Shown here: positions 1 to 56,716 of the stretch, piece by piece
How the letters are laid out: each line of letters opens with the position of its first letter
Position numbering within the stretch: the stretch's first letter is position 1
The notes under the pieces: model-generated
Told to the model about the DNA's origin: nothing
The model's database searches: none
What the model saw: the letters and a program-made list of their open reading frames with translations, nothing else
Assembly (NCBI GenBank): GCA_914767715.1
Contig: OU612072.1
Coordinates: forward strand, 1,924,001-1,988,000
DNA: 64,000 nucleotides
Origin: Membranipora membranacea
Taxonomy: Eukaryota; Bryozoa; Gymnolaemata; Cheilostomatida; Membraniporidae
Reading direction: 5' to 3'
Position numbers and translations under genes: made by a program

Positions 1-2200
1 GATATTTAGTCAAAATTTTAGTGAGTTCTGATTATTTTCAGTAAATGCTACATCTGTACAAAGTATTCTTCATTAAAGGCATCAGTTGTACTGATTGTAT
101 ATTATAGTTCCAGCGGCTTTTGTAATCTGTTTTGTCATCGCTGCTTAGTACGCAAAAAATTAGAGCAAGTAGAGCGCAACCTGTCCTATGCTTTCCCAGT
201 TGGTACATACCCTATTAGAAATTGCATATTTTTATTGGATAGTGTATGGAACCATGACAAACATATTATCATGCAAATAATAATAGGATAAAAGGTAGCT
301 ACACTGTTATGTCATTTGATGTATACAGCACCTTGGTATAGGCAAGTTACTGCAGAGCTAAATTATCAACACCTCACATTGTCACTTGTCAGTGGGAGAT
401 TCACAGAAGACCAATTTCATGTTTTGATAAACCAGCACAGACTATTGCATTTATCTAGTAAGCTTATCCTTGTTACCCTCACATTTGTCTTTCAACGAAG
501 ATAGTGAGTTGATCTCATGTGTCTCTTCTTGTACACTTATAGCAGAGAACTATGTACTCGAATGGTGTCTATACATTCAAGCCAACATGCAAACACAGAA
601 TCTGAACTTATCCATGGGCACAGTTAAAGTATGCCTATGCCCATCACACTCTCAGTCTCATAACATGATCAGAAGACAACAACAAGCCTTGAGTTGAGGC
701 ATAGTAGGGCTGATTGATGGATATAACTTTTGCATAGCAGATGAGAGTTTCATTTTATCAACCAGTCAAACTTTCCAATGTAACAAAATCAATGATAAGT
801 CAACTTGCTGGTAGTTACAAATTCAGTGAGTGAGTGAAATTAAAAAAAAACATTTTTTTTTTGAAGAATCCTGAGTAGAGATTTTATAAAATAATCAAGT
901 GCTTCAAAATCTACAACTCTTCATCAGAGACAGTATAACTGACCACACTATTATGTACCCAAAGAGGTGGTACAATCCAATTTGCAGTCAATGCAATGCA
1001 GAGTACAGCAAGATGAGTTAGGTTGATTCACTGTTGGCATAAAAAAACAAATTTTGCTGAAACAGGATATCAGAAATGAAATGGCTTGACTCGTGGTTAA
1101 TGAAAAGCTATCCAATTAAATTTCTCCTACTCAGAAGTTGGCCAATCATATAGGATAATAATTTGGCAGCGTGTCAAGTAAACCTAGTTATTTGTATTTC
1201 CGGTAAAGAACTCCTAAATGTCAACAAGAATGTCAAACAAGGAACACCTAAAGGCTAAAGCATCATCACAAATGAGTTCTCAAATTCTTTTTCACTACTT
1301 AATTTTGCTGGTCAATGAGAATACAAATGTGAGTGAACCAAAAACATGTTATTTTTTCGTTGCATTGTACAATAAAAACATAATCCACCATTCAGGGAAG
1401 ACTGCCTTTCTTCATCAACACAAGCTTTCATAAATTTTTGACTTTAAGTATGATAATTGCTGATCGATGTTCGTTTGCTTTTAGGATAAATGCAATGCAA
1501 GAGAGTTGTATATCGGAATTAATAAGACTTGAGTTGGGATAACTGGTGATATTACCCCTTGGAGAGGTGCATCTTGTTCCGGCCTCTTGGGACCCATTTC
1601 CACTGCCATGTTGCTGAACTGAGAACGGAAATCTAGTGTGGAAAACCAATTACTGAAATCATCTACAACAAGATGGTGGTGATAGGACGACTACAGGTGA
1701 GACTACAGGTGAGAGGGGGCTTATTCATTGCTTGTTCTGTTGTTTTACACATATCAGAAGGATAATGTGGCTATGTGACCTATGAACTCCCTCTCCGGGG
1801 AGAGGATGTTCATTGATGTGACTGAGGGACTGATTTTCATAAAGAGTTATTATAATAGGCAGACAGCCAGCAGGTAGCTACCCGTGGTAGGCGGATGTCT
1901 CACAACCGACGTTAAGGTCACTGGGTCTGTGATTAGGATTGAGGATGGAGACACCGCATTATTTGTACATTTTACACTGTTGCTGATCCACTCGCCATGA
2001 AATTCGATAGCCAACGATATTGTAAAAGATAGATAGAATTTTTTTCTGACCGATGTCAAAATGGAAACGGGTTGTAACAATATAGAAGACCGGAGAAAAC
2101 CAGGCATCACAAGAATCTTTATGATCAAACTGAATTTAATGATCTATGGTAAACTATATTATGAATAAAATGAATAAGTGAATTGTGTGTTTATTTACAG
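1..2200. other. No supported gene; upstream introns or intergenic DNA
   Basis: I see no exon I can defend here. The unknown gene that ends at 3655 must have earlier exons, because its exon at 2201 begins with the third base of a codon, but no upstream exon with a matching phase stands out. Positions 25-293 are open in one + frame without a start codon or similarity I recognise. A T-rich homopolymer pair lies at 841-860. Confidence 0.4.
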
Positions 2201-3655
2201 AGAGCTCGAAGTGGGTTATTTGAGGAATGGAGTAGTTGTTACAGTGCGAGATGATCGGAAAGTTAATTTGTCAATTTCAATTAATGGTACTGCAGCCAAA
2301 CACATTCTAAAGCTGGGGCGCAACAGGAGTGTAAGTACAGTAATTTACCAGTCAGAGTCACAAAGAACTGTTCAAAACTTCACATTTTTTAGGCTGCAAG
2401 CATTTGAGTTTCCTTTGATTGTAGTTTGTAGTTAGTTGTTAGCCTGTTATTCTCACCTAACTCCCTATCTGAAAATCGCTACTACTCGTACATTTTGCAT
2501 AGACATCTAATACTAATATTAAAAAGTTATGGCCAATAGTAGTAAATATCCTGCTGACCACATCATTGATGGACCACTGGTATATGTAACAAGTTTGCCC
2601 TGATTCCTTGAAATGCAAAACCAGCATTGGGACGAGTCTTTTGCCATACGTCTGCAGTTATCATGTGCTGTACTTGGGAGGTAAAAATACTCATATAAAA
2701 TCCCTTTATGTTTGGTGCTCCAATCTTTCTGGATTTATCTTCAGACTCTCTGTACTAATTACTTACTTGGCATAATGTCATCATCAGACATCACTATCGT
2801 CCCTTGTGATGCTCATGACTTACCACATATCTTTGTGTTTCAGAAGCTACAAATGGGAAATAGCAATGGCTGTGGATTTGTATCTCACCACTTTGCTGCT
2901 AGGCTGGCGAAGGTAAGCAGAGCACACTGGTAATCAAAACTGCATCTTACTGGGGTGGGAATAATCTAATTGACCGTTGATATTTCAAGTTTATCACATT
3001 TTTACCCAGTAGTAGAGTGTATTATTTCTTACTATCACACTTTTACCCAGTAGTAGAGTGTATTATTTCTTACTACTATCACACTTTTACCCAGTAGTAG
3101 AGTGTATTATTTCTTACTATCACACTTTTACCCAGTAGTAGAGTGTATTATTTCTTACTATCACACTTTTACCCAGTAGTAGAGTGTATTATTTCTTACT
3201 ACTATCACACTTTTACCCAGTAGTAGAGTGTATTATTTCTTACTATCACACTTTTACCCAGTAGTAGAGTGTATTATTTCTTACTACTATCACACTTTTA
3301 CCCAGTAGTAGAGTGTATTATTTCTTACTACTATCACACTTTTACCCATTAGTAGAGTGTATTATTTCTTACTATCACACTTTTACCCAGTAGTAGAGTG
3401 TATTATTTCTTACTATCACACTTTTACCCAGTAGTAGAGTGTATTATTTCTTACTACTATTAGGTAGCACTAATCTTTATTGTCAGGTCAGTTTAGATTT
3501 TACAAACTTTTGAAAGTATCATTGTGCCATGTGTTGTGCCATGTTGTGTTTCTGTAAGTTAGGGTGTCCGGGCAGTACATAAGTTACCAGTGAATGCCCA
3601 CCTCTCAGCTGGCTCTGAGATTTTGACACATGTCCATAGCCCAGAGTATGGTTAG
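2201..3655 (+). CDS. Unrecognised gene, three 3'-terminal exons (partial)
   Basis: Exons 2201-2330, 2844-2912 and 3563-3655 join in one frame (entry phase 2, then 0, then 0) and end at TAG 3653-3655. Acceptors are tttacag, gtttcag and gttag; donors are gtaagt and gtaagc. About 93 residues are visible: a basic, beta-rich stretch with the motif LRNGVVVTVRDDRK, then GNSNGCGFVSHHFA, and the C-terminus ILTHVHSPEYG. There is no signal peptide, membrane segment or cysteine pattern, so an intracellular protein is likely. I do not recognise the family. The start lies upstream of the part I can read. A 470-base minisatellite occupies the last intron. The next gene's signal-peptide exon starts 1.4 kb downstream, so these exons are not its 5' end. 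Confidence 0.5.
2991..3460. repeat. Minisatellite, 40/43-bp unit, about 11 copies
   Basis: Near-identical tandem units begin tttacccagtagtagagtg and end ttactatcacac. Two lengths alternate irregularly, with and without an extra act triplet in ttactactatcac. One unit has cccatt instead of cccagt. The array lies in the last intron of the unrecognised gene. The low divergence implies recent expansion. Confidence 0.95.
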
Positions 3656-4292
3656 TTTGGTTATTGTCCTAAATCTTTTTTTTTTCATTATGGTAACCAT
3701 ATTACTTGTAATTTTCCTTGCAAAGTGCAATGAGCTATAACAAAAAATCCTATGAAAAATATTTCAATCTTGTAAATATTGGTTGGTTGGATGATATAAT
3801 TAGATCTGATTAGGCTAAGGTGGGTTGTGTAGACTCTGAATGTTTAGTTTAAGAAACCTATTATAGCTCAGTTATCACCTGCATTGATCGATTGCTTGCG
3901 ACTGCGCTGATAAAACATATGGCAGGTCTGTCCTTACTCCTGGTATTTCTGTATTATGATTAGGCATAAAAGTTACATCGATCAATTGTACACTGTCATC
4001 AAAAAGCCTGGATGTTAGCCTGTATTTGTTATAATCTCTTGAAAATAAACAAACTGCCCCCAGACCCGCCATATTATTTTCTATTAGCGCAGTCACGAGC
4101 TCTAAAATGAGAAAACTTTTTATCAGCCTCACGATCCCCAAAATCTTTTCCAAACCTCTCACCTTCTAGTTTTCAATGGTGCTAATGCTGAAACAAAAAT
4201 AATTTTTTCAGAGCCTCGTGTTTTGTTATTGATTGATTGATCAAACGAGTAAATCTTACTTTAATCCCTCAAACATTTATACAATAAAGCAC

Positions 4293-4626
4293 TAGATCAA
4301 GTTTGACCCATTTTTCCCCTGTTGGAATTGCCCCCCCCCCCTCTACTGACACACACTTTGCATATTTGGAAAAGGAGTGCGGCTCTGCTTGATTTCCTTA
4401 GCCTTTGATGGTGCTCACTAATCTGCTCAATGTCACATCACACAATGCCATCGGCAGCACAACTTCTGATGCCCGGCTGAGTAGTGCAATATGATTATGA
4501 AAAATAAGGTTCAACAACCAAGTTTGCCTTGCTAAAATTGTTGTCTTCCGGCTTTGGTACATCCAACAACTAGTAGAGGGGGGGGGGGGCAATTCCAACT
4601 GGGGAAAATGGGTCAAACTTGATCTA
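4293..4626. mobile_element. MITE with long inverted ends and 9-bp target duplication
   Basis: The ends are inverted copies of about 50 bases (TAGATCAAGTTTGACCC inward to a C/G homopolymer next to ctctact). The element is flanked on both sides by the direct repeat ATAAAGCAC (4284-4292 and 4627-4635). A 9-bp duplication is typical of Mutator-like transposons. There is no coding capacity, so it is non-autonomous. It lies between the unrecognised gene and the LU/CTLD/NIDO gene. Confidence 0.8.
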
Positions 4627-5093
4627 ATAAAGCACTGTTAGCACACAGCTACTTACTTATATTAGTTTATATGGAATGCAAAATGATAATTTGCTATCTA
4701 TGGATATAAATAATATATGAGTTGGATTTTGAGGTATGAAAGCTCATCCATCTTATTTAAAGATGAATATCACAGACAAAATAATGATGTAAAAAAGGAG
4801 AGTTAGTGAGTGACCTCTCTACAATTCCAAGACATTATTGCTCAACCAATTTTAATAAAACTGTATTCGTGTTTGAAGTGCCAAAATTTGGATTATTACA
4901 AATTTATGATGGGTGAGACAATTCTTTACAGAGTTTTTTCCGTGAAACAATGGATCACAGATAATCAGTGGAATATTTTATACGGCCAACAATCAGTTTA
5001 GCTGAATCTAGATAAGTTTTGTTTTAGTACGTGTGCTAGTTTATAACTCACACGTTGAGTAAATGGAAGCCAATGGAGTTGTGGTAATTGATA

Positions 5094-5142
5094 ATGAACT
5101 TGGTTACATTACTAAGATGGGGAGTAATATTTCTGACACTAG
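5094..5142 (+). CDS. Signal-peptide exon of the LU/CTLD/NIDO/TSP1 gene
   Basis: ATG 5094 opens 16 codons with a hydrophobic core (VTLLRWGVIFLTL) and ends in phase 1 at the donor gtaaat. Joining to 5760 gives the mature start near GPAISGHC. An ATG at 5063 lies in another frame and encodes no signal sequence, so 5094 is preferred. Confidence 0.7.
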
Positions 5143-8100
5143 GTAAATATGTTTTCAAAATTCAGCTCTAAAGCATAATATAACGTGGACACAATGGGTC
5201 ATATTATACATGTTTAACATCTATCCAATTTTTTATAGGTAAAATATGGTGATATATATTTCTATAATAGTATATAAAATTAATAATATGTATTTTATAT
5301 GAATATATTATCACCACATCTCAAATATCAATCATCGTTATCATTTATGTTTCCTGAAGGTACCCTCAAACTTTGGGCACCATTTCCTTGACGATAAACA
5401 GCAAGCAATTTAAATTATCTCAAAAGAAAATCATTCTCATTATCCAAAAGATTGGGTTAACTAGAAGTTGAAAATAAGTTGGCAAGGCCAAATTGAAGAA
5501 TGATAACCGTAAATACTGAAAAAGTGATCAAGTGCCCCCACTGACCTTAAACTGAATGCCGGCTTCTGTCTGCGCCTCTATGCTCTTCACTACCTGCAAG
5601 CTACGAGCAGTGCAGTGTCAAGTTTGGCGTCTGTACCACAAAGGCACCTTCAACATAAACAGATAAACATACACCTTTCATTTTTCTGATACCAAGCATG
5701 CGTGTTTCATGTGTATTATTATAGTACAACATGATCAATGTTATGATGACTATTCGCAGTTGGTCCTGCGATTAGTGGGCACTGCCTTCAGCAGAAGAAC
5801 GATACATATATGGAGTGTGATAACAAGCAATACTTTGAGCAATGTCATTTTGAAGCCAATCAGGTAAGCTACTACCATGCGACTGGTTCAGCGCTTGCCT
5901 AAACTGCATGGATGAATCTTCAATTAAAAAACTCCGTTGTTAGATTCAGAGTTTAGACCAATCAATTATGAATTCAAATATCTCTGAAAAATGTGTGCAT
6001 TATTAACTTGGATTATGCCGGTAGGTTTTACCATGCTATCACCGGTCTTCTGTTATTTGGAATGGCAGTATTGATTTGGTCACACTGCAACTATCAGGGA
6101 TTATATAAAAATGAGAGAGCCTGGGGCTGGAAGAATCAATCTAGCTAATGGTAGTATATCATGCTGGTAGAATGAGCACTTTTGATAGTTACACGAATGT
6201 TTATAACCTCTAGTTTTTTAATGCAGGTCTGCCAGTCAGTTTACAAATCTTCTGGAGGGGACTTGACCTTGACTAAGTCATGCGAAGAGAAGGCCGAATG
6301 CGAGAGCAACATGGACGCCGTCGGCCCGGCGAACGCTTGTAACAACCCTTTTACTGCTGAGAAAACCTGTGTATACTGCTGTACTGGCGACTTTTGTAAT
6401 GTAGACCCAGCAGGTGTTCAGCCAAAGCATTTCGGTTAGTGGTCCCTTTTTTATAGATGTATAAAATAATTAGTGTAACATATAGTGGTGTTCCACAGGG
6501 TGCCCAACTATTTACCATTTTAGAGCAGAAAAAAATTACAAGACAATGTTAAATAGATATCAATATCTATGTGAGGGTTATACTGGAAATACAAGCGAGG
6601 GATTTTTTCAAAATTAATAATACCAGTACATAAAACATTTTTCACCATCCCAGAAATCAATTATGAGGCTTTACTAACTTGGTTGCTTGTATTAGAACGA
6701 TTCACCCTTTTGGTTGGATAAGTCAATGGGGTTTTTTTTGGTTTGAAAGAATTTTTCAAGGGATGTCTTATTTCTATCCATAGATGATCCAAGTATCTCC
6801 CACACATAGATCTCCGCACATAGATCTCCGCACAATAGCCTAGTTTGCCCACCCTTACCTTGTACAAGGGTGCGCTGATTAGATGAGTTGATTTTATTCT
6901 CACTGGCCCCAAAAGGGGCACTGACTAGCAATGAAGTGTATATTATATTTTTATAACTACAGGTGGTAAGTAAATAAGCCTGGCATTTCCTATCAGAACA
7001 AAATAAGCAAATTCCTAATGTTGTACGCAACTACGCACCACAAATTTCATGAATTTCCAGACAAATGGTGCTTGGACAAATCATTTGTTTCCACAAGTTT
7101 GAACAGATTTACAACGAAGGAATTGATGCTGAGCCTGCATCACTATTTTACTCAATTCTAAGGGAATTATATATATATACTTTTATTGTCAGCAACAATT
7201 CATTATTTCAAATGTTTTTCATGATGTGACATAAATGGCAAAAAAGAAAAATGATACAAACAAAGATTCAACAAAAAATATAAGACTTTGCCAATAAACT
7301 GAAAAAATGTTGCATTAGCCTTTTCTTAAACATATTCAAAGTAAGAGTGCTTCTCAATGAAGAGGGTAAAATATTAAAGTTTGTTGCTATTTTGTGGTTT
7401 AAGTTGTCTAATGGAGGTTTAAGTAAGTGTGTATCTCTTCTTGGAAATCGGTGTGGTGTGGTAACAAAAAAATCAAAGATGTATGGAGGTGATAAATTAT
7501 TCAGAGCCTTAAATCCCGTAATGCAAGTAAAATAATTGCTCAGTATTGGAAGGGGTAAAATTTTAAGTGATGTACATAGGTCATTAGTAGGTGACAAATA
7601 AAAAGGTATATGTTGAACATTGGCCACAATTCTCAAGGCTCTTTTTTGCTGAGTGAAAATAGGGTTTGTGATATTTGATGCACATAAGTTGTAATATATA
7701 TGGATACCATAAATGAGATAACAGTGAATAAATTGAAAATAAAATTGTTTAGCAGAATGCGTGGTCAAGTAGGGTCTGCATAGCTTAAGTAAGTTTGTAT
7801 TTTTTGACACCTTATCCAAAACAGGATTATCCAAAACACCTTATCCAAAACAGTCTAGGACAAATTTAATTGTTCTGGAATGCAACATGAAGAGCGACTA
7901 TTTTCACCTCAAATAACCATACAATACCTGATACATTTCGGTATTTAATATGAGATTGACCATCTGTTTTGTCAGATCCAAGTTGCGGTATCGGTGAGAG
8001 AAACTTTAATGACAAGTGGTGTGTAGTTCTGGGGCAATTAAACCCAAAAAAAGGTGAAGAGGGATATAAAGCAGCCAAAAACTGGTGTAGATCTCGCGGA

Positions 8101-11100
8101 TATATCGGTGTCTTTCTTCCAATTAATGAAAAAATCAGCAAACATCTACAGGCATGGATTACAAAGAGTGATGAGAGTAAGTTCTATTCACCTGTTATCT
8201 ATTTGACTGTAATCTATTTGACTGGTCTTGTATGAGTTCTAAAGGAGGTCTTCTTGAAGTTTAAATCATAATCGATATGAATCAATCACTGATTCAAACA
8301 CATAATCAATGAATCTATTACCATGGGAAGTTAATTTTGTTGATATTGTGATATTGTGATATGTGTTGAATGTTTAGTTACAGGTCGTGAGCCCATGTAT
8401 CCATACGGACTTCCTGTAGGGGATCACCATCATCATATCGAGGACGACGCCTGTTTGATGAGATTCCAACATCCAATAAAGTTATTCGGATCGATTCACT
8501 CAGTATTATATGTAAGTCGGACATACATCTACTGTATTATCGTTATTCCTTAACGGTAGAAAATCCAGAAACCAGAAATAAGAATGACAATATAGTACTG
8601 CTGGTATCTTTCATTAACGTCATTGCCTTCATATAACCAGTATTGAGTGCCGAACCCAAAGGGTGTGACATAAAAATATTATTATATGTGTAATATAATT
8701 TTATTGAGTGAGAAAACAAAAGTCTCTGAATATTCAAGTAACATGAGGATATCAAATGTTATCATTGCATGGCTTAAGGTAAGTCAAGAGTGATGTTTGA
8801 TCTGCAAAAATCAAATGTGAAATGCTGTCATATTCCAAAACAATTATGCAAGAAATTTTAAAAAAGAGTTTGAAGCCAACTCTCAAGTGCATCAAATGAT
8901 ATATGATGTTAAAACTGAGCTTTTTAACCATCGGTAATGAAGGAATAAAGATGATTCTGCTTTTCTTGTAGGTTTGCACAAACGGGATAATAAGCCTTGG
9001 CTCCCCAAATAAAAATTATTCACTTGACAGCCGTCACCAATGGTCTGGCACCCCTGTGATCGCTCCTTTCTGGGCAGACGTAATCCTAGAAGTTGGTGGA
9101 ATGTTGTGGGCAAGGGAGACAATTAAAGCCGACCTGCTGCGAAATATCTCAGTATACAGTGAGTATTACATAACTTATTAGTGGCTGTGAGATGTGCAAT
9201 GGCACTGTGGGTATTTATAGTCCTGTTGGACAAGAATCAGGCTAAGATAAATGGCTGCCTATACTCGAACTTACCTGTACACAATTGTTGGTGATGTATG
9301 GGATAATAATCAAGGTGCAACACTCTGTTGATTCTGCTTGGAATCATACCAGGATTGCCACACGCGTTTATTTCTATCCTATATTTACCTTTAATCAGTG
9401 ACTGACCATTAGTACATCGCAATCGTAGACATAGAGAGAATAATTTATCGGCATTTTTCCATTCTCAGTATGACTACGTCTACCAATCAGACGCTTCCCA
9501 ACAATGCAGTACATGCCTTCTGTCTCTTTTTTTTTAGTTTCTGCGGAATATAACACAAACTTTGCTGCCACATGGGCCCTTATTGTCACATGGCAGAACG
9601 TCGCAGCTTACGGACGTAACAATGACAGGGTATGTTGTTTAAAAAGTAATATAATATTTCTTTGATTGAACATCGATGTCTACCCTCCGGCTTGTGGTCT
9701 CTCAACTGATGTTGTTATGTTACAGATTAGCCATAGATTATTCACAGCACAAAATCAGACATGATTACAAGTTCAGTTGTCCAACGCTAGCCCCTGCAGC
9801 CCCCTTGCAGCAGTGTCTTTGATCATTCTGTTTTCACAATCTCCAGCCTGTTTTTTTAAGCTATAAGTAGATTGGATGATAATTTTCCCATTTGTAAAAT
9901 GCTTAGTTCTGCAAGCTATGGATGTGGATATAGCCTAGCAAATTGAGCAGATGCTCTCTTTGTATATAACCGGCTTTTCTGCGTATATCAAACGCAATTA
10001 TACAGTCAGCAATTACCGGCCCAAAGCTCGTTTAGCTTTTTTTCGTCAATGGTGATCTATTGTGTATCACCAAGAATTCATGAAATTATATCAGTGAATG
10101 TTATAGAGTTATTAGCCACCTGTGCAATTTTAATATCTTAGGTCTTTTTTAAGAAAATATTAATTGAATACGCTAGACTTATAGAGCGCTCTTTTAGTTG
10201 ATTGTGTAATTTTGTGAGACATATCAAAATGTTGGCATTAATAATTTTAGACAAATAAATTCCAATGTGTGATAGCAGTTAACGGAGATCTGGACACATA
10301 TGTGCTGTTTATTTATGGGAAGATCTCCTGGGGTACAGGCATGCGATCTCCCGGCATGCTCCCTGAAGCTGGATTCCACGCTGGAGACAGGAGGAATTAT
10401 TACAGTGTCTCACGGACACAAACTGTTTTCTCAGATCTCGTTATCAACTCCAATGTTGGTAAAGCAGGGCAATGGCTGTTCAGAGTTAGTGATCATAGAA
10501 TCGCCCTACCAGGTAAGTCAGTTACCGCTGTATTGTTTGATAAGGAAATCAACTCATTTAGAATTTCATTGTTTTGTTAATCTAAATAGCCAATAAGCTA
10601 GGCAGTATAAGCTAATCAACTAGGAACCTAATACAAAGCATGCACGAGCCAAGGTTTTTAACAGGACTAAGCCATCTCAATAATGATGCTGCTAGTATGC
10701 AGGCAGGTATTGGGAATTGAAGCAGGACATGCCAATCTCAAACAGTCCGGAATTAAGAGTCATTTTATCAAGCTATCAGTTACAAGCCTGTCAACATTCA
10801 GTTAGTCACAGGTTGTAAATAACCAGCCTGTCCTTGGGGTCGGAGTTGCGGCCCCCTTTACATGGAGCAGACAAATCCTATCGCCTTGCTATGCTCGCTA
10901 AGGCATAAAGCACTTCGAAACTAGAAAGAGCCTGTTTGCTTATGTCCACTCAAAAGTTGTCAAGCATAATCCCCCCTCTTATAGAAACATGTCAAACCAT
11001 GCAATGTCTTATCCTTCCCAAACATGCCTTCCTTGCCAATGGTTGACGGACTGCTCTTTGATTCAATGCTGTATTTTGTGATAGTGATAGACTCAGATGA

Positions 11101-12483
11101 GATAATAGGAGCACGTTATTAAATTATGTGCAGGTAGAGAGAACTACGTGATGTACATAGCAGCAGCTGATGTGTTTGGTAATAAATTGGGCTCTTGGAT
11201 ACTTTGGAATACGATATGATTTTAAGCGCACAACAGTTTCATTTTCCTTTTACATTATCATAAAGTTGCAAATCCTGTATGGATCGGCTTGACGTTCAAG
11301 GATTCCCATTCAATCAATGACTTGGGAACAGAGAGAGCTTTGGATTCTTGGAGCAACTGGCCATCAGGCTATGACCCTAACAAGCATACTGGAGACTGTG
11401 TCTTTGCAAGCGCTGACGGTTGGATAAGAAGCGGATGTGATGAGCCTATATTGGGTGTAGCTTGCTATACAACGTTAAAGACTGGTAAATTAGTCTCCTG
11501 TAGTTTATCACGCCTGTACAACTACTTTTGTTGATAGAGGTTCGGTGGCAAGAGTCGCCACGGTGCGTATACCGCATTCAAAATAAGATATAACTTCTAC
11601 TGATGGAGCAAAATCTGAGTAGGTCTGTGTCAGTAACCCTTTTTAGATCTGGTAGAAAGTTGTTAATAATAAACAGAGAGGGCTTGGTCTGCCTTCTACT
11701 TTAGATGGTTGCATACAAGGTGGTTTCCCTGGGTTATTTTGTTAGGTGTCTAGTGAGACAACCCTGAACAGATCCAAAACATCTGAAAATATGCATATAT
11801 ATATTAGCATATAGTATGAAATAATTGCAATGTGACGCCATATGAAGTTTTTTTGCCCATTTCTGACTCTTTCTTACCGATAGAAAATTGTTGTGATTGA
11901 AGCTCCAACTGTTTAGAGCAGTGTACAATATTGGGCAAACTTGTTTTTGCAGGACACAATGTTATAACTATCCATTGATCTGTGATGGTAACTGAATCAT
12001 GACACTATGCTACTTTACATGATCTCCAGTTTAACAAAGTACTCCTCATTTTTGAGTTACTAATTTGCTGAAAAAAATCATCCAGATAATAATGTTTAAT
12101 TGCTTTCGTTTTTACCCTAGAGGTCACATGACCTGTCATAACACAATGTTATATATCTTATAATAATTAAAACAAGAAAAGGTAGTAGTAACTTATTAAC
12201 TTATGTTAATCAGAAAAGCTGCTGTGATGTTTACTTTTATGGCAAACATAAAACTGGTTATTGAAAATATCATGAATTTTCAACTCATTTGTACTGTTTC
12301 TCTGTTTCAGTTAATGGGGGTTGGACTATTTGGTCTGATTGGTCAGCCTGCTCAGCTACTTGTGGTGAGCAGAGTTTCAGGGTCAGGAGAAGGTCGTGTA
12401 CGTCCCCACATCCGATATATAATGGTGATAAGTGTCGGGGCACGGATAAAGGGACTAAGAGCTGTCACATGTCCGAGTGCTGA
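5094..12483 (+). CDS. Secreted LU - CTLD(NIDO inserted) - TSP1 protein, complete, 540 aa
   Basis: Ten exons: 5094-5142, 5760-5863, 6227-6434, 7976-8176, 8384-8511, 8972-9158, 9538-9629, 10251-10512, 11266-11484, 12311-12483. They total 1,623 bases, all junction phases agree, and the stop is TGA 12481-12483. The first exon encodes a signal peptide (MNLVTLLRWGVIFLTLG). Domains are LU (about residues 22-112), CTLD first half (121-187), NIDO (188-410), CTLD second half (411-483) and TSP1 (484-540). No membrane segment or GPI signal follows the TSP1 repeat, so the protein should be secreted. LU, CTLD and TSP1 are protein- or glycan-binding folds and NIDO is an extracellular-matrix module, which suggests an adhesion or recognition role (inference). 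The order is unfamiliar to me. A candidate polyadenylation signal AATAAA is at 12939-12944. Exon limits are read by eye and need transcript support. Confidence 0.82.
5760..6434 (+). CDS. Ly6/uPAR (LU, three-finger) domain exons
   Basis: Exons 5760-5863 and 6227-6434 encode about 103 residues. The spacing is typical of LU domains: an early cysteine (GHCLQQK), paired cysteines in the middle, and the diagnostic end CCTGDFCN. The intron between them is phase 0; the block is bounded by phase-1 introns, as expected for a shuffled module. LU domains bind proteins at cell surfaces. Confidence 0.85.
6833..6935 (+). mobile_element. SINE body fragment
   Basis: The stretch from tagcctagtttgcccaccct through ggccccaaaaggggcac matches the 3' body of the complete SINE at 55518-55760, which has the same short hairpin (ggcccc.aaaggggc). 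The tRNA-like head is missing. It lies in the intron before the first CTLD exon. Confidence 0.7.
7165..7850 (-). mobile_element. 5'-truncated LINE, ORF2 C-terminus and 3' tail
   Basis: The - strand is open from 7834 to 7268. It encodes the C-terminal region of a non-LTR retrotransposon polyprotein, with motifs FYFQFIHCYLIYGI and QQKRALRIVANV, ending after the usual conserved tail. The 3' UTR runs to caataaaagtatatatatat. A diverged relative is at 61799-62500. It is inserted in an intron of the LU/CTLD/NIDO gene, antisense to it. Confidence 0.8.
7976..8176 (+). CDS. C-type lectin-like domain, N-terminal half
   Basis: 67 codons, phase 1 in and phase 1 out. The sequence fits the first half of a CTLD: paired cysteines (CGIGE...DKWCVV), helix 1 with its cysteine (AAKNWCRSRG), the strand GVFLPI and helix 2 (ISKHLQAWI). 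It stops just before the expected WIGL strand, which is found 3.1 kb downstream in the exon at 11266. No CTLD second half lies in the following intron. Confidence 0.8.
8384..10512 (+). CDS. Nidogen-type NIDO domain, four exons
   Basis: Exons 8384-8511, 8972-9158, 9538-9629 and 10251-10512 encode about 223 residues carrying the NIDO signature in order: YPYGLPVGD, then VCTNGIISLG, APFWADV, WALIVTWQNVAAYG, FQCVIAVNGDLDTYVLFIYG and the closing SNVGKAGQWLFRV. The last exon must start at 10251 (acceptor ataattttag); a later AG at 10277 would break the frame and lose the FQCVIAV motif. The module enters and leaves in phase 1. NIDO domains occur in nidogen, tectorins and mucin-like matrix proteins. 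Confidence 0.87.
11266..11484 (+). CDS. C-type lectin-like domain, C-terminal half
   Basis: 72 codons that begin at the CTLD core strand VWIGLTFKDS and continue through SWSNWPSGYDP, GDCVFA, DGWIRSGCDE and ILGVACY, which supplies the two closing cysteines. The calcium-site motifs EPN, QPD and WND of sugar-binding lectins are absent, so classic Ca-dependent glycan binding is doubtful. Phase 1 in and out. Confidence 0.85.
12311..12483 (+). CDS. Thrombospondin type 1 repeat and C-terminus
   Basis: A single exon encodes one full TSP1 repeat: the tryptophan ladder WTIWSDWSACSATCG, basic strand RVRRRSC and six cysteines, ending MSEC and TGA. WxxW motifs in this fold are usually C-mannosylated. The terminal location and immediate stop indicate a soluble product. 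Confidence 0.88.
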
Positions 12484-14151
12484 GTATGTACTATGACAGT
12501 GACTGTGTAAATATCCCCCAAACTTACAGTTTTTAGTTGTACTTTTCGGATGTCATTTGTTATGCTTCTAAATACCAAGATGATATTGACTACTTTTGTT
12601 CAACATTTGTTTCTGCAAACTTGTTGGAATTTGTGGTCGTGACAGTTCGGATGGTTATTTCAAAATACAAACATGTTTTGTGTTACCACAATATTTGATT
12701 TGGTAGTGGTGTAAAAAATCACATAAGAAATGAATATGTGTGCTAATATAAGATATAAGACATAAAACAAAGCTGTATTAATAAGAATTGCTTTGGTGTT
12801 CATTAAATGTGTGAATATATGGCTGCTCACATTATGGTTACTCTATGTGTCAGGGCAAAGTAGACGTTAGGGTAATCGGTAGGCTCCTAAGTGAGAATTA
12901 GTAGAGTTTTTTTTCAAATGAACCCACTACGGCTTGCCAATAAATATTTGCGTGAAGCGCTCTGAAATGTTTTGAAACCTTCAGAACAGGAAATTTCTTT
13001 GTGCCTTACTCTATATTATAAGAGTGTTCCTTAGCCATGATTACTGATGAGTGAAAAGTTACTGGGAACTCTAGTAGTGAGCAACCTTTCATTTCGTTTA
13101 TTTGTTTCGAATCAACAAGCTGTTTAAACCATTGTGTCTGTTCCAATCTTGTTTTGGCGAGCTTTATTTGGGTGTTGACTAAGGGATGGGGGACAAAGCT
13201 TGTCAGCCTTTGCATTGAACCCCTCAAAATAAGGTTCACTCCAAAAGAGGGGTTTTGAGGGAATTCTGAGATATATTTAATTGCCCCTTTTGGCGAAGAA
13301 AATCTGTAGATCAACAAAAACGAACAGCTGAACTTGGAGAGTCATGTCAAATGAGAATGCTGATGTGAACTGTTATACACTGAGATAAAGGGCAGTTATT
13401 GATTCAAATTAAATTTTGATAGAATGTAGAGATAACTTGGTGTTGGTTGATAACCATCTCAGGATCCAAACAACATTGTCTCAGTGCTCAGACTGCTGAA
13501 TGCGTGAGTTTGCGGTGTTGTATTGTTGGATAATTTAATGCTGCCAACTGATACATGCAGCCGTCTAAGTACTAAGACTACAGGCACACACTTTCAGACT
13601 GATTGTGACCATGAACAACCAAATCAGAATGCAGTTTACAACACACAAGGTCATTGAGAGACATCACAGACAATTTCAGAATAGCATGGGATAATTGTGA
13701 GTTAAAGAGCAGTGGAACTCAGTGACAATCAAAATGTTTTCATTCCATAATGGGAGGCAATTTAAATATGCAGTCAATTGGCGTGAGTGGTTACATGTGT
13801 GTAGGAGATAACAGACATTCACAAGCACTCATACACTCATCAAGACACATCTGGTCTTGCAACTTCAGGATTCGTGATCCATTTCAAAGTAGAACTTGGA
13901 GGCAAGGACAGTGACTACTCGTAGTAGTTTGTAATTGGTAAACCATACATACATAAGCAGAAATTGCTCATTTATTTTGCAGGAAGTATCGCTCAAATAT
14001 AATACGAACAAATGTATTGATATTATTTCTGTTCAATCATAACCGTGATGTATATTTTGAGATGGTAAACCTATTTCCATATAGCAATTAATGTAATATT
14101 CTATGAGCTAAAATCATTTCTCTTTGAAATTCCTGTTTGAAGATACTCTTC
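12484..14151. other. Region between two convergent genes
   Basis: Holds the 3' UTRs of the LU/CTLD/NIDO/TSP1 gene (+) and of the large receptor gene (-). Candidate polyadenylation signals are AATAAA at 12939-12944 on + and at 13976-13971 on -. I see no further exon. Confidence 0.5.
13971..13976 (-). promoter_or_regulatory. Candidate polyadenylation signal of the receptor gene
   Basis: AATAAA on the - strand (plus tttatt), 176 bases beyond the stop codon at 14152-14154. It is the nearest canonical hexamer. Position only; cleavage site not visible. Confidence 0.35.
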
Positions 14152-16411
14152 CTATTCTTCTGGTTCTGTCTCTTCTGCAGCTGTCGGCTCTTCCTCTGCA
14201 GCTGTCGTCTCTTCTTCTGCGGCTGTCGGCTCATCCTCTGCAGCTGTTGTATCTTCTTCTGGCGATGTTGGCTCTCCTTCTGCAGGAGTTGGCTCTTCTT
14301 CTGGCTGTGTCGGCTCTTCTTCTGGCGATGTTGGCTCTTCTTCTGCAGGTAAAGACTCCTCTTCAGGCGATGTTGGCTCTTCTTCTGGCGATGTTGGCTC
14401 TTCTTCTGCAGGTGAAGACTCCTCTTCTGGCTGTGTCGGCTCTTGTTCTTCGGGAGGAGGTATCATCTCTTCTTCTGCAGGTGCCGGCTCTTCTTCAGGA
14501 GGTGTCGGCTCCTCCTCTTGAGGAGGTGGTGTAAACTCTTCTTCAGCAGGTGTTGGCTGATCCTCTGCAGGTGCCGACTCTTCTTCTGGTGGTGTCGGCT
14601 GATCATCTGCAGGTGTCGGGTCTACTTCCGCAGGTGTAGGCACTTCCTCTGGCTCTATATCCATGAATTCAGGTTCTAATTCTGGAGGAGGAGGAGGAAG
14701 AGGTGAAGGGTCTGCTACTGGAGGTATAGGCTCTTCACTTGGAGGTGGAGGTTGGGGCGTAAAGGACGGTGTAGGTTTAGTTGGAGTAAATTGAGAGGGC
14801 GCAACGGACGGTGTAGGTCTAGTTGGAGTAGGAGGTTTGGGCTTAGAAGACGGTGTAGGTTTGGGCGTAGAAGACGGTGTAGGTTTGGGCGTAGAAGACG
14901 GTGTAGGTTTGGGCGTAGAAGACGGTGTAGGTTTGGGCGTAGAAGACGGTGTAGGTTTGGGCGTAGAAGACGGTGTAGGTTTGGGCGTAGAAGACGGTGT
15001 AGGTTTGGGCGTAGAAGACGGTGTAGGTTTGGGCGTAGAAGACGGTGTAGGTTTGGGCATAGAAGACGGTGTAGGTCTAGTTGGAGTAGGAGGTTTGGGC
15101 TTAGAAGACGGTGTAGGTTTGGGCGTAGAAGACGGTGTAGGTTTGGGCGTAGAAGACGGTGTAGGTTTGGGCGTAGAAGACGGTGTAGGTTTGGGCATAG
15201 AAGACGGTGTAGGTTTAGTCGGAGTTGGAGGCGTAACAGCCAGTGTAGGTTTAGTTGGCGGGGTCTGTTGAGTCGGAGGCTGAGGTGGGGATGGAAGATC
15301 AGGGGGCTCTTCAATTGTCTCCTCAGAAACTACAAGGGATAACATGTGAGGTATACAGTCACCGGTATAACCTGCCCAAGATTTTATTGAGAGTAGGGTA
15401 GTAAGCATACACGGCAACCTAACTAATCAAACTTAAAACTTACACATTACGATCATGCAGGCCAAAAAACAGATAGCGACAGCTTATATAAAAGCTCATC
15501 ATGACTAAGAATAAATCCACACAATAAACAAGAAAATTCAGATTAGATTGAGGACTATCGTGAATAGAAACAACTAAACATCATTGGCGTGGGTGCTGTT
15601 TGCTTGTCAATTGTCTCAAATCTATCTGCCTAACAGTCCATGGTTGATATTTTAACTAAGGTTGTGGATTTTGATGTTGTATGTCAATAAGACATAACAT
15701 ACCATAAGTGTGGTGTGAGACCTTGCCTTTCATCTGCGGATCACCTCCAACATTAATGACTCTTGACATGACTAGAAAAATAAATTTCAACTGGCCTCAG
15801 GTAAAGATATGGGAATTATGAAGATATGTCGAACAATAACATTGTCTCCATTTAATCGATCACTGAACTATCACCTTGAAGTCAACCACCGATGCTGATC
15901 AACAAGCTGAATATAGACAGCTTGAATTCACCCAATCTTTATCATTACTATCCATAGCCATAATTTTTGCCACAAAATACCTTTTATATCAGGCCAAGTC
16001 TCTGATTATGCTTTGTTTCACTATCTCTGATTTTATTTGATAAATATCAAGCTATCGCTCATTAGCATGACTGGTATCTATTAGAAATCCAACTACTGAC
16101 GCCACCAAGATGGCAGGCAGTTAATGACATTTGAGTATCTTCATTCATGACTCCTGTTTTGATATTTTATTCATGATACTGACTAATCTAACCCACCTTA
16201 TAAATTGGAGCCACACCATTTGCTATTCAGGACGATCACCATGATGAATAAAAAAATAATACAGAATGACAACTCCTTTATGCGTTCTTTTCAACCGAGC
16301 GTGTATTTATGCAGCCTATTTTAGTTTTAATTACTAGTTGATTGATAGCAGATAACTCCTTACCTGTTCCTGCTGTAGCTAAGTCCTTCTCCTCGTCCGG
16401 TTTTCTTTGTC
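14152..16411 (-). CDS. Receptor cytoplasmic tail with Pro/Thr/Ser octapeptides and Glu-rich repeats
   Basis: Exons 16364-16411 (16 codons) and 14152-15329 (393 residues and stop). The terminal exon starts at 15329 after the acceptor cccttgtag; the frame stays open further upstream to a Met at 15417, but that is intron. First comes a proline-rich block with about 16 copies of PKPTPSST, then roughly 200 residues dominated by Glu, Pro, Thr and Ala (EEEPTSPEE-type units). No tyrosine signalling motif is visible. Many PxxP motifs could bind SH3 domains (inference). Confidence 0.8.
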
Positions 16412-19400
16412 CTGAAATTTAGAAATCAGATCTCAGATGTGAGATTGTCTATAAAGTCTTGGATAAGCTTTTATCATTATTCTTAACTTATAACTCTGCA
16501 TTTAATTTTAGCGATTCTAAAACACCTTCTTGTTGGCTACTTTGAGGTTAGATATATACAGGTTGTTTATCATGTAATAGGTTATATATCATAAATGGGT
16601 TATATATCATATAGGTCAAATATCATCTATAGGTTATATGTCATATATATTTATAGGTTATCTGTCATATAAGAGGGAAACATACAAAACTAGAAAAGCA
16701 TGAAAATAAAATGAGATCATCAACACATTGGTATGGGCCTGCTAATCATATGACTGGATAGCACAAAGGGTAACTAGGTGGATCTGTAAACTTTCCAGTA
16801 AACCTCTTTAAACAAATATACAAACACAGACATTCTAAAATAACCGGTATTCATACATTTTATGCGGTTATGGCCCCCAAACTGCAGAGAGAGATTGTTT
16901 TTAATGGTTGATGATTCAAGTAACTACATGAATGTTTAATTTCAATGACCAATGACCAATTGACATTTTGCTCACCTAACATGAACAGCTAGTCAAAATG
17001 TTTGTGCTGCTAAATGCGAAAACAGAGACATGACATTTATGTCATTCAGTAAAAGCAAACGACAAAATTATGAATTCGATAACATGATCCCCTCCAACTC
17101 GAGATTTAGATTTTTATACCTGTTACAACCCTTTACCACAGGTAGATTAATATTATTTTAACTGTATGGCAATGTCACACCCCTCCCCCCCCAATATATA
17201 ATATATCAACGATTAACACAATATAGATTAAAAAAAGTAACATCTCACCTCTTATGAATGCAATAATCAGTATCATCAGGGCAAGCATAGATATAATAAC
17301 ACTTCCTGACACCAATAGGAGCAGGATCGGGAGCCTCTCGTCCTCTAAAGCAGCTGCTATATCTCTATACAGACATACTCCATAGTGGCAATGTCCTCCA
17401 GATTCACAGGGTACTGTCTAAAATAGTAGAGACAAATGGAAACCCCTGTTGCATTATAAATACCAGGGTAACATCGAGGTCGATCCTTTATTGAAGTACC
17501 TATGAGTCGTATCCAAATTTTATCAAGTGTCCCAGCAGGGTCTCAGCGACATATAAGGTCCCGCAACTCTAGCATGTAGACTGTGTTAAATATGATGGTG
17601 ATGGGTGAAGTGGTATGGCTTATGGGGTGCTTGTCGCTCACACCATCAACCCATTCTTGGGGATGATGAGATAGAGCAATTGGATTTGGTTTTTGGAATT
17701 CACTGATGAGGCCCACTGAAGGAGATTTCTAGCTGTCTATGCATTTCCTTCCTTCACCTCCCATAAAGTGTCTGCCTATCAATAAACCAAACTCCCTCAC
17801 CTATTTACTTTATTGGATCGATGTTTCTTCAATGGAAGGTCTGGAAATATTATAGCTGCAGCTCAATTTCATTATTAAAACATGATTTTTTTGGAAAAAT
17901 ATTTTTTGTTGTCAATAACACTTGAAGAGGAAACAAAAAAAGGTCTTTTTACTATAGCAAGAGAACAAAAGATTGAGAAGTTTAATCCTCTCTCAGATGC
18001 TTTGACTCAAACAGTTCAAAATAATTTGTGACTAGATCTGTCTCAGCTGAATTAAAAGTCAGCTGTTACCTGAATTGACTTAGCAAGATTCTAGCCTGTC
18101 ACAACTCTTGAAATGGTATATAGTTTGAAAGTATGCTAACAATCAGTTACTACAAACATTCTTAGCTAAGCTTGTCACCCTGTTTTTATAGTGCGTCTGC
18201 TTGGACAGGAACACACTCTTTTCATCTCCCTGAGTTTAATCCTGTCAAGTAATTGAGTATTTTCTCCAATGAACAGTTTTAACGATTTTAACAGAAATTA
18301 TAACACAAAAGCAAAATTTGGAACTCTGCATATATATACCCACATCATTCATTGTCTCTCTCGACACATATAGTCCCACATCATCACTCTCTCGATGCGC
18401 AATCGAACCTTGTCATAAATTACCAATTCATACCCGCAGCAAAGGTGAAAACTACTAACTCACCTTAGAACAAATACTGAAGGGCTCGCATTTATCATCA
18501 ATTATTACAGATCCCTCGGGGCAGTCACATTTATCAAGATGGCACCTGTAAGATAGTCCCAATGCTTTATGGCATGTCTTGCCTGTCTCACAACTCATAG
18601 CTATAGGTTTCTTTGCCTGTCCCAGGAATGTATCTGAATGTGAAAACACAAGCGGAAGTAACAATCATTAAATATTACAAACACAAATGGTAAGATTAGC
18701 ACATGATATGAAATGCTGTCAGAAAACAAATATGCCAACCATCAAATGTCACAGGGAGTAACGGGTTCATGAATAGTCCCCAGGTAGACTCAGCAACCAT
18801 AGATCAGAGTTGTTGAACTTAGAATTTTAAACTCGTGCAGATGATAGTGATGACAATATATGATTGTATGACTTACATCACAATCCCAGATGGGATAAGC
18901 GCAATAAAAAAAGTGTGAAATGAAGTAAAACTTTGTACTCTAAAATATTAATACAAGACTGCTCAGCTTAAGGAACAAATGACTGACAGAATAAATCGAT
19001 GTGTTACATACCAGTACACTTGGGCTCTCCTTGATTGCAGCGCAGATTGATACAAGTCTGACCTTCTTCACACACGACCCCCTCACACTCATCAATGTCT
19101 GGCCCACATGGGCCATCACCAACTCGGCAGTAGCCAATATCGCACACACACATACCTATTGGAAACAATAAAAACAGAATACATGTAGTTTGAAATGTAG
19201 ATAAGTCATTTTACTATGAACATTGAGACTATATGAAGTAGTCAGGGTATAAATATATGTCTGCAGCTATCCAAAAATGTTTGGAAAGATAAAAATGATA
19301 TCTGCTTTTTGCAAGTGAGATAAATTTAGATTTGTATCGTTCATTGTTCATCGTTGCATTGTTTTATTGTTTTTAATAGATATAATGTTTTAAATAAGAT

Positions 19401-22400
19401 ATTGATCAAACTATAAGTTACCCGGCATGCTGTAGGTGGAGGTAGGGGATATTATATGGCTAATATCGGCTTTTATAATCCGATAAAACTCAATTATCAC
19501 TCTACTGCAATAGCGAAATGCCTGAAGCTTGTTCAAGTTTACTTTAGAAATAACTTTATTACCGTTTATACACTGCGATTTTCCTATCAAACTGCAATCA
19601 TGATTCCATCCACAATGCTGAGCAGAAGTTATCTGCGTATGAACCTCACATATATTCCCATATGTGTCAAGCTGATAGCCAGACTCACAAACACACATCC
19701 TCAGTCCTATGACACAAACCATGTGATCACCGCAGTGATCATCTCTCGAGCAAGGTGGGCACTGAAATAAAAGTAAAGTAAGGTGTGGGCACAACAATAA
19801 AAGCGAAACTGTGGCGAAATGATATTCATGGTGAAATCAAATGCAAAGAATTTATACAAAGCTCATAGGTCACCTTTATTTGGCTCCACAAGACAAAATA
19901 TTTTGGTATAATTCTAGAGTTCTCAATTTAGAATACTGCTTTGATTTCATGATCAGCCTGTGGCCCAGTTTAAACTGATTTTCACTCAAATTTGGGATAA
20001 GAAGGTACTAAAAAGGTAATATTTTGTGAACCTTTTTAGTACTTTTTCATCCCTGCTATGAGTGAAAGTCAGTTGAAACTGGGTCACAGGCTGTTCAAGA
20101 AACATAGAGCAGGATCCTTGACAAGACTCTAGAATGATAAAAAAAAACCTGATTCTGTCACAATCAATTTTACGGCACAGTCCAAGACAATGTATCCTGA
20201 CAATGGTTGGGTTGGTAAATGTAGTTTGACGACATACCTTCAAACACGCAATGTTGCTGAGCCAGATGCACTTCTCGTCGCTTGTTCTTGTCATAGATCT
20301 TACACACAAACATTCTCCAAACACACACACCTCTCCGGGGTTACTGCCACAATCAACTGCACAGTCATCTCCCATAAGAGCGCCTGTATTTTAAGTATAG
20401 TCATTATGAATGTAAAAAATGTTTAAAATGTAATCAGTTTTGAAAATGAAAGTTTATCCTCCCCAGAGCATACAGGTTTTTGAAAGATTATGGCCACCTC
20501 CCTGTTTCACGTAACATAATATGTGGAATCAAATACTCACTGTCAATTGATGTGAGGATGTAATGTATAGGTAAAATAAGGTGAGGAATTTTCTCAGCTT
20601 TTGGGTGCACCTCATAACCAATAGTTAATATTAAGATGAGCCCAATCAGTACAATCTCTTTTGCTATGATGGTTCGCCCCCAAACTTCCCTCCACAGCCC
20701 AAATTAAGTGCAGTCCAGTCTTAATAATAAACCTAGACAGGACTTGATACGGAGCATTAGCAATGAGGGGCTGAGGCATTTAATTATGGGCAATGTTACG
20801 ACATTGAATAGTGTAGTAGCATTTGCGTTATTGTTTTCGATGCTATCATTATAAAAAAGTATGTATTATTGAGCATTATCGATACAAAAGTATCAAAGTA
20901 AAAGTTTACATACCAGCACAAAATTTTCCGTCGCCAGCAAATCCTTGTCCGCATTCACATTCATAACTACCAGGTGTGTTAAAACAGATAGCATCACGAT
21001 CACAGTCATCTACTTCTCTCAAGCACTCATCGATATCTACGACATTCAAGAAATCAATGCTCTATACCAGGGGTGCCCAACCTTTTCATTGAGGGGGCCG
21101 CATCCACATATTGCAATGTCCCTGCGGGCCGCAATCTCACCATAAATCAAACATTCATATATTGGTGTGCAGTATTTTCATCTCTGCAGTAGGGAATTTA
21201 TTAATTGGAGCTCACTCAAATGCAATGGTTTGGGAATTCCAAAATACTGTGACTAGATGTAGAACGTTACTTATTATTGTACAAATGAGGAGTGATATAA
21301 GCATAGGGTGTGAAAATTGTTTTTGCGACTACGCAATTTTCTCAAACGGGTCGGGGGCCGCATGAAATTGAGTCAAGGGGCCGCATGCGGCACAAGGCCA
21401 CTCGTTGGGCAGCCCTGCTCTATACTATGACAGCATTGCACAGGATATTTGTAAATGGTAACTCTTTTGGATTCATTCAGAATCGGATCTGCTAGTATTA
21501 GCAAAGAAACTTTACCTCGGCAAACCTCGTCAGCTCCAACCTCAAAGTTCTCTGGGCAGTCGGGTGAATGACAGAGTCCATCACTACCCATCTCGTAGTT
21601 CCCTTGACATACACACCGGAATGATGTTGCTGTGTTGATACAATCTGCGTTACTGCCACATATACCTCTTCGCTCGGAGCACTCATCAATATCTGCACGA
21701 ATAAATTTCAAATCAATTGGTTGGCGACATCACATTCTAATTGATGATACTGTGAGAAACAAAGCCCTTACTGTTGAAAATAGTTTTGTATGTAGCTGTC
21801 CGGAATTGAAGACTGCCCACAGAACGTAACATGAGCTAATTTTTTCAGTAGTTGTAATATGTCCAGACACTCTTGTTTCAAGGAAGGAGTATTTAAATAA
21901 CTTCTTTTACTGTTATAGTTTGTTTTTTTGTCTTTTTCTTTTGCTTTGCCACCAAGTTTTTAAACCTTTTCCTCATAATGATTGAGGTTGCCAAAAAAAA
22001 AATTTTTTAACAAAAGATTTCAAAGCCCTTATGGGTAAAAAGTTATTTATAACATAGGAGATTGTATATCCTCTTATTCATTTACGATGTAAACATTAGG
22101 TATGGGTTCGACTGTACTCTAATAAACTTTTCCCATATATTCTACATAAATTAGGGATACATGTATCATTGTCAGGGTCTTCTCAACGTTTCATTTTCCA
22201 TAAGACATCAAAGCTTACCAACACAGTCAGTTCCATTTGATGAAAAACCATGAGGACAGCAGTAGTAGGACCCATCAAGATTGATACAACTTCTGCCTAA
22301 GCAGATTCCTGGTACTTCTACACACTCATTTGTGTCAGTACAGGTTCTGTCATATAGATTAACTCGATATCCAAAGTTACAAGGACAATTACCTGAACAA

Positions 22401-45553: not shown

Positions 45554-45580
45554 CTAGAGAATTTCAACACAAACAACATT

Positions 45581-55919: not shown

Positions 55920-56716
55920 TAGTGATGGCAACGAGACGGGACAATTCCCGGTCTCGTGGGACTTGTCTCCTCGGGGCAGTATCTCGTCCCGTCAAGACAG
56001 ACAACTGTTAATACATGTCGGGACTACTAGCATTGTAAATGGTAGTAGCTGGTCAAAATATTGCTCACACCCAGACTCGAACCTGTGACTCGAACCTGTG
56101 ACTCGAACCTGTGACTCGAACCTGTGACTCGAACATGTGACTCGAACCTGTGACTCGAACCTGTGACTCGAACCTGTGACTCGAACCTGTGACTCGAACC
56201 TGTGACTCGAACCTGTGACTCGAACCTGTGACTCGAACCTGTGACTCGAACCTGTGACTCGAACCTGTGCCTCGAACCTGTGACTCGAACCTGTGACTCG
56301 AACCTGTGACTCGAACCTGTGACTTTGTGATCAGCAGTCAACGCTCTTACCCACTACGCCACGGATATTATATGACGTCATAAGAAATTAAGACTATCAG
56401 ATACTTATTAGTCATACTTTTGCTGCGATTATTAAATGGCTTACAACACAACATGAAGCTTTCTTTAGGCATCTATAACTCAATAAATACTTGACAGAAT
56501 TTGATGAAACTTGGTCTCAACATAGTTCCTTATTTCTAGATGATAAGTTACTAACTGAATCGAATGTACTATAAGCTGATTGCACTAGTGATAGTGAAAT
56601 AATATCCACCATATATGTCTCGGTCTCGTCCCGGTCTCGTCCCGGTCTCGTCCCGAATTTTCTTGCTGTCTCGGTCCCGTACCGTCTCGCCAAAATCTGA
56701 CAATTCGCCATCACTA
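55920..56716. mobile_element. hAT-like element, 797 bp, with 8-bp duplication ATTGCTAC
   Basis: Inverted ends TAGTGATGGC / GCCATCACTA and perfect ATTGCTAC flanks (55912-55919, 56717-56724). Near both ends are repeated ggtctcgtccc units in opposite orientation. Inside lie a reversed tRNA-like sequence (cttacccactacgcca) and the 13-bp array at 56074-56322. No transposase. Confidence 0.85.
56074..56322 (-). repeat. 13-bp minisatellite made of Pol III B-box sequence, about 19 copies
   Basis: On the - strand the unit is GGTTCGAGTCACA, which contains the B-box core GGTTCGAnTC. Only two units differ, one aacatgtg and one gtgcctcg on +. The array lies next to a tRNA-like 5' half on the same strand (tggcgtagtgggtaagagcg), in the place of that tRNA's own B box. 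Confidence 0.9.

Follow-up and report, generated by a model that had tools for sequence, protein, structure and literature searches.

Insertions of one domain into another have been reported in 20% of multidomain proteins, and close termini are described as a common trait of guest domains (PMC13114784, in the available part of the article). The gene described here, which we call M1, is like those architectures in that a host domain is interrupted by a guest, but differs in that the guest is an exon cassette and that both empty and filled host sites occur within a single genome; neither 'lectin' nor 'exon' appears in the main text of that article. M1 occupies positions 5094-12483 on the plus strand of a 64,000-nucleotide stretch of the bryozoan Membranipora membranacea genome (the window; C8:1924001-1988000), and a complete NIDO domain is predicted to lie inside a C-type lectin-like domain (CTLD) of its product. 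A nested arrangement had been proposed for this region from the window alone (the original prediction), and we have examined it using both the window and the genome from which it derives (339 Mb in 18 contigs).

The CTLD of M1 shares with the long-form CTLDs (DEC-205/LY75, PLA2R and MRC1) a six-cysteine pattern, a WIGL-type strand and a profile match across both halves of the domain, but it is far diverged, falls below the Pfam cut-off, has its calcium and sugar motifs replaced, and contains NIDO between helix 2 and the WIGL strand. CTLDs of the mannose receptor family have outer and inner cysteine pairs, some with an extra pair at the N-terminus (PMC4229073, available text). The guest is complete, as it is in nidogen, SNED1 and DEX-1-like proteins, and protein searches match P0001 (named DEX-1-like) and P0010 (named SNED1); the Pfam domains listed for these two show NIDO alone and not within another domain, whereas in M1 it is the guest. 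The domain set of M1 is also similar to that of cnidarian and sponge CTLD proteins bearing NIDO, TSP or Ly6 domains: NIDO, thrombospondin and U-PAR/Ly6 are named among the domains placing cnidarian CTLD proteins outside the cell (PMC8260672), and a figure legend on sponge receptors lists CTL, LU, TSP and NIDO (PMC8242945), with neither order nor nesting given in the available text of these sources.

M1 consists of ten exons, all read from DNA, which have splice signals and are open from ATG to stop, such that a transcript joining them would encode a secreted protein of 540 amino acids in the order signal peptide, Ly6-like domain, CTLD with NIDO inside it, and TSP1. The N-terminal half of the CTLD (strand, helix 1 and helix 2, with Cys124, Cys136 and Cys158) is encoded by exon C1 (7976-8176) and the C-terminal half (the WIGL strand, with Cys455, Cys468 and Cys477) by exon C2 (11266-11484); both have AG and GT flanks and are phase 1 at both ends, and their boundaries are exactly those originally predicted. 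Between them are four NIDO exons, N1 (8384-8511, phase 1 to 0), N2 (8972-9158, phase 0 to 1), N3 (9538-9629, phase 1 to 0) and N4 (10251-10512, phase 0 to 1), set off from C1 and C2 by phase-1 introns at 8177-8383 and 10513-11265. The introns that flank the N-half, the one that follows the NIDO block and the one that follows the C-half are all in phase 1. The four NIDO exons total 669 nt, enter and leave in phase 1, and contain little besides NIDO, which Pfam identifies (PF06119) with an E-value of 2.9e-38 and 132.2 bits against a cut-off of 25, spanning positions 3-185 of the 186 in the profile; the guest is 223 residues long and the host about 140.

The original prediction held that no other lectin half was visible nearby, and this appears to be correct. 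When either CTLD half is compared with the window by tblastn only the half itself is recovered below an E-value of 2.9, and a six-frame scan of the window with a profile built from 17 CTLDs places exon C2 first (E 0.024) with a weak match at 20173-20340 second (E 0.08), so that none stands out. Additional CTLD-half exons beside the NIDO block or in the introns, which could have completed each half separately, were sought by these window scans and by reading the relatives described below, and were rejected as none was found.

The whole arrangement is repeated in a paralog, M2 (C8:3455245-3462057), which lies on the same contig at a distance of 1.5 Mb, and it is therefore more than chance. All ten exons are present in M2, the intron phases are equal at nine of nine positions, and the two products are 44% identical. 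For nine of the exons the length difference between the two genes is a multiple of three, from 0 to 9 nt; the last exon ends at a stop codon in M1 and is taken to continue in M2. The proportion of nonsynonymous differences (pN) is lower than that of synonymous differences (pS) in every segment, with pN and pS values of 0.30 and 0.64 in the N-half, 0.33 and 0.73 in NIDO, and 0.38 and 0.77 in the C-half; we quote no ratios because the synonymous sites are near saturation. By these values the host halves and the NIDO guest are similarly constrained, and both gene copies are probably under purifying selection.

The remaining exons of M1, all on the plus strand, encode the flanking domains. Exon E1 (5094-5142; start codon and signal peptide, MNLVTLLRWGVIFLTL..., with a phase-1 donor) is a putative assignment for which M2 has a similar exon, and is the sole candidate exceeding the set thresholds in positions 1-5750, a stricter scan yielding none. 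Exons L1 (5760-5863), which is conserved in M2, and L2 (6227-6434), which has a CC...CN pattern at its end and a weak donor, encode the first and second parts of a Ly6/uPAR-like domain whose Pfam matches to three-finger families are weak (Activin_recp at E 1.7 and 10.1 bits in M1, PF00087 at E 0.08 in M2), the CC...CN pattern being recognized by eye. Exon T (12311-12483) contains the TSP1 domain (PF00090; E 1.4e-9, 38.4 bits against a curated cut-off of 21.6) and the stop codon. The repeats in 5000-13000 comprise three families of direct repeats and a single inverted pair, 25-28 nt long and 70-76% alike, and none of them is a flanking repeat of the sort an insertion would leave. The intron between L2 and C1 contains an open frame (7268-7840, minus strand) that by eye resembles the C-terminal portion of a reverse transcriptase.

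Members of the same gene family provide examples of the host site without a guest. A genome search with the N-half gives 31 matches, of which ranks 1-6, 8 and 9 were read, leaving out rank 7, which has an internal stop, and 22 others at no more than 17.0 bits; the C-half gives four matches, all within M1-M4. The eight members comprise two with filled sites (M1 and M2) and six with empty sites (M3-M8), numbers that refer to the matches followed up and not to all matches. Exons C1 and C2 are open and phase 1-1 in all eight; C1 always precedes C2, and does so directly in the six empty members, where the gap between them ranges from 272 to 15876 bases. A NIDO profile applied between the halves gives best-exon scores of 125.7 bits in M1 and 130.4 bits in M2, and at most 4.9 bits on either strand of the gaps in M3-M8. 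The joined CTLDs of all eight have six invariant cysteines, three in each half. The empty members are distributed across contigs C8, C2, C9 and C10, and five of the six have Ly6 and TSP1 exons, with neither being found in the stretch examined around M6. M7 (locus L037, 2582-3534) and M8 (locus L038, 3106-4058, reverse strand) are near-identical genes about 21 kb apart on C10 in opposite directions, with a single residue distinguishing their joined CTLDs. In an unrooted CTLD tree M1 and M2 group together with a support of 0.99. We also note that a run of ctacgg repeats begins just inside the C1-C2 gap of M3 (locus L012, about 7930-8035).

Cassettes similar to the guest are found elsewhere in the genome. 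Of the 62 matches to NIDO exons in the genome, the ones read belong to M1, M2 and five further loci; these five are all on contig C2, where four of them, closely similar to each other, form a cluster at 29.36-29.40 Mb and the fifth lies about 3.8 Mb away at 25.55 Mb. One locus (L001 with L039) was read for all four exons, and these are 125, 187, 95 and 265 nt long, with the same phases and phase 1 at both ends; the corresponding lengths are 128, 187, 92 and 262 nt in M1, and 122, 190, 95 and 265 nt in M2. No CTLD half exceeds the noise in the stretches read near the C2 loci (best 6.8 bits). The last NIDO exon is 52% identical between M1 and M2, 43-49% identical between these and the five C2 loci, and 26-36% identical to frog NIDO repeats, and M1 and M2 group together in an unrooted NIDO tree (support 0.96). 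The donor was probably a NIDO of the four-exon, phase-1/1 type represented by the C2 loci. PDB yielded no match to NIDO.

The C-half is the part of the host that is most readily recognized as a CTLD, with a Pfam Lectin_C match at E 0.0054 (profile positions 41-100; 17.9 bits, under the cut-off of 22.6) and a PDB match to a CTLD of PLA2R at E 0.012. The contribution of the N-half is seen in context. Against the 17-CTLD profile the score rises from 11.4 bits for the C-half to 17.8 bits for both halves, with an alignment that runs through the junction, and only 4 of 2000 shuffled N-halves score as well in this context (10 of 2000 when the cysteines are fixed in place); the corresponding numbers with hhalign are 3 of 300 and 4 of 300. 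The joined CTLD of M1, aligned across the junction, has P values of 2.9e-4 against 3 CTLDs and 6.9e-5 against 17 CTLDs. When the N-half is placed before the C-half of a mannose receptor CTLD, the Pfam Lectin_C score increases from 55.4 to 65.3 bits and the match reaches profile position 4, whereas 18 shuffled versions score 52.1-58.1 bits, one of them, at 55.0 bits, also reaching position 4. As controls for the gain from the N-half, none of 2463 windows from 16 other proteins does as well, and 6 of 652 peptides from the window equal C1 in score when placed before C2, three of them being of low complexity, two overlapping C2 itself and one a coiled coil by eye. A structural model of the N-half alone (pLDDT, the predicted local distance difference test, of 59) has its elements in the expected order, strand, strand, helix, strand, helix, with the last helix stopping two residues before the end of the exon.

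The relatives also bear on the nature of the host. A profile of five empty members matches the 17-CTLD profile with a probability of 92.9 and an E-value of 3.8e-7 over 113 columns across both halves, and one of seven members including M1 and M2 does so with a probability of 77.7 and an E-value of 1.9e-5; M8 was left out of these profiles and of the Pfam run, the latter being given seven of the eight members. Compared with PDB, the family profile matches DEC-205 with an E-value of 3.7e-10 that combines matches to several of its CTLDs, and PLA2R at 0.002 with the C-half only. Lectin_C is matched weakly through both halves in M6 (15.1 bits) and M7 (15 bits; E 0.04 each), and no Pfam match was obtained with the joined CTLDs of the other five members tested, M1 included. 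Classical C-type lectins have the motifs EPN or QPD and WND as calcium and sugar ligands. At the places of these motifs the C-half of M1 has, by eye, YDPN and WIRS, such that its CTLD seems to be without the classical ligands, and sugar binding is not claimed.

We consider it likely that the NIDO cassette entered an intron inside the CTLD by exon shuffling, that the gene was then duplicated, and that both copies have been kept under purifying selection. The older family would have had the structure Ly6-CTLD-TSP1, with a phase-1 intron already splitting the CTLD before the WIGL-like strand; a four-exon NIDO cassette of the kind present at other NIDO loci in the genome, with phase 1 on either side, would have entered that intron, and duplication of the filled gene would have yielded M1 and M2. 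A NIDO block with phase 1 on both sides, lying within a phase-1 intron of a single CTLD, is what exon shuffling would be expected to leave, as the original prediction had suggested, and the similar cassette elsewhere and the empty sites are also consistent with an exon-shuffled module. The observation behind the original prediction is confirmed and its interpretation is partly supported, the insertion itself being well supported by the evidence from the relatives.

A gain by M1 and M2 has to be weighed against the reverse history, in which NIDO was already inside the CTLD of the common ancestor and later disappeared from the other members. The trees are unrooted, which weakens the case for gain, and loss of a phase-1/1 cassette would leave the frame intact; nonetheless, we favor a gain over repeated loss because the carriers form a single clade and six sites are empty. 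An exact deletion of four exons would also be needed, more than once on most rootings, from members dispersed over four contigs and leaving no NIDO remnant above the 4.9 bits noted for the six gaps, and we regard this as rather improbable. It is likewise unlikely that the NIDO exons are for the most part an alternatively spliced cassette, with most transcripts joining 8176 to 11266 to give a plain Ly6-CTLD-TSP1 product and the NIDO form being minor or tissue-specific. A form lacking the insert does exist in the six relatives, and skipping of the NIDO exons keeps the frame in M1 and, by its phases, in M2, as was pointed out originally. But any phase-1/1 cassette can be skipped without a change of frame, and the intact frame therefore lends no support to the suggestion of one transcript with NIDO and one without; it follows from the phases and is no sign that skipping takes place. 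Four exons would have to be skipped together, and in M1 and M2 the constraint on the NIDO exons equals that on the host halves, which argues that the NIDO form is used. Separate genes within introns and misassemblies both exist in general, but that the NIDO exons represent either one here is hardly credible: the same order and phases recur at the second locus 1.5 Mb away, the window contains no N bases, and the introns ahead of the block and within it lack any start exon for a signal peptide, with a phase-1 donor, that passes the threshold. A separate NIDO gene inside the intron was rejected on the grounds of the shared block in M2 and the lack of a start exon.

The nature of the host is where the case for a nested domain is most exposed, and a number of observations weigh against it. 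Pfam reports no match for the N-half of M1 alone or for its joined halves, and as neither the halves nor the joined domain reach the Pfam cut-off, the host can be classed only as a divergent CTLD. On its own the N-half does no better than shuffled sequences (632 of 2000 in the profile test and 192 of 300 with hhalign score as well), and the family N-half profile alone fails to recover CTLDs (probability 0.7, E 0.084). The gain of 6.4 bits that the N-half contributes is small compared with the 15.5-43.3 bits contributed by the N-halves of 17 vertebrate CTLDs; the part of the DEC-205 match that covers both halves (positions 30-138 of 140) has an E-value of 0.02 when taken separately; and there is no CTLD among the 50 structural matches listed for the low-confidence N-half model. 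The NIDO tree does not resolve the placement of M1 and M2 relative to the C2 loci and frog NIDO (support 0.35 or less), nor which other NIDO is nearest. Some of these points would also fit C1 being a separate small cysteine-rich domain, with NIDO merely lying between two neighboring modules, as Pfam is blank for C1, C1 alone matches no CTLD profile, and the structure comparison named other folds. We consider this very improbable, given that C1 precedes C2 throughout the family, that C2 without C1 would be missing both helices (1 and 2) and half of the six cysteines, that the empty members match CTLDs over both halves, and that C1 adds 9.9 bits to the Lectin_C match where no shuffled version adds more than 2.7.

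In the nested protein that we favor, the insert would occupy the loop joining helix 2 to the WIGL strand of a divergent CTLD of the long form, the two halves of which would fold around the guest with NIDO standing out from the CTLD. From the CTLD pattern, local disulfides would be expected between Cys124 and Cys136 and between Cys455 and Cys468, and a third, between Cys158 in helix 1 and Cys477 at the C-terminus, would span the guest. Because the usual calcium and sugar ligands seem to be missing, the CTLD may act as a rigid mount and a protein-binding face, and NIDO and TSP1 may make contacts with the matrix. By eye, there are 11 cysteines in the Ly6-like domain of M1 (5760-6434) and 12 in that of M2 (C8:3455852-3456588), and NIDO has three in both; where the number is odd, a free or cross-domain cysteine is possible.

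Accounts of exon shuffling usually have whole domains joined one after another. In the case described here, it seems that a complete domain was inserted into the interior of a second one by way of an intron that splits the host fold. We see about even chances that this is a naturally occurring nested domain maintained by selection, the history of which is still legible in a single genome as the free phase-1/1 NIDO cassette, the empty phase-1 sites of six sister genes and two filled genes, with a guest larger than its host, a disulfide crossing the guest, a CTLD that gave up sugar binding to present it, and the old form still attainable by skipping. NIDO nested in a CTLD was not found in the open-licence literature or in exact-word protein searches, which is no proof of its absence; nested domains and exon shuffling are kinds of event already known, and what would be new is this host and guest pair together with empty sites and similar cassettes in one genome. 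The tolerance of a fold for a guest larger than itself, and the changes that follow, become testable, with the empty hosts as natural controls. There is also a blind spot, in that surveys of Pfam domains would miss such cases, since Pfam names NIDO and TSP1 in M1 and M2 and misses the split CTLD in both.

The rest of the window contains a variety of other features. A second reverse-transcriptase-like open frame, again the C-terminal part and judged by eye, lies at 61921-62385 (plus strand), and broken frames at 45554-47589 (plus strand) and 49040-51943 (minus strand) resemble by eye the endonuclease and reverse transcriptase of a non-LTR retrotransposon. On the minus strand there is a 424-residue open frame at 14152-15426 with proline/threonine-rich repeats of the TPKPTPSS type and no Pfam match at E 10, and short tandem repeats at 55992-56353 give SSHRFESQVRVTG in all three minus-strand frames. 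Cysteine-rich frames at 17175-21729 (minus strand) may belong to a gene with EGF domains, with an EGF_CA match (E 2.1e-8) at 21373-21729. A possible further TSP1 exon is located at 31776-31892 (minus strand; tblastn E 0.008), and a CUB domain exon at 61124-61648 (plus strand; Pfam E 1.4e-10).

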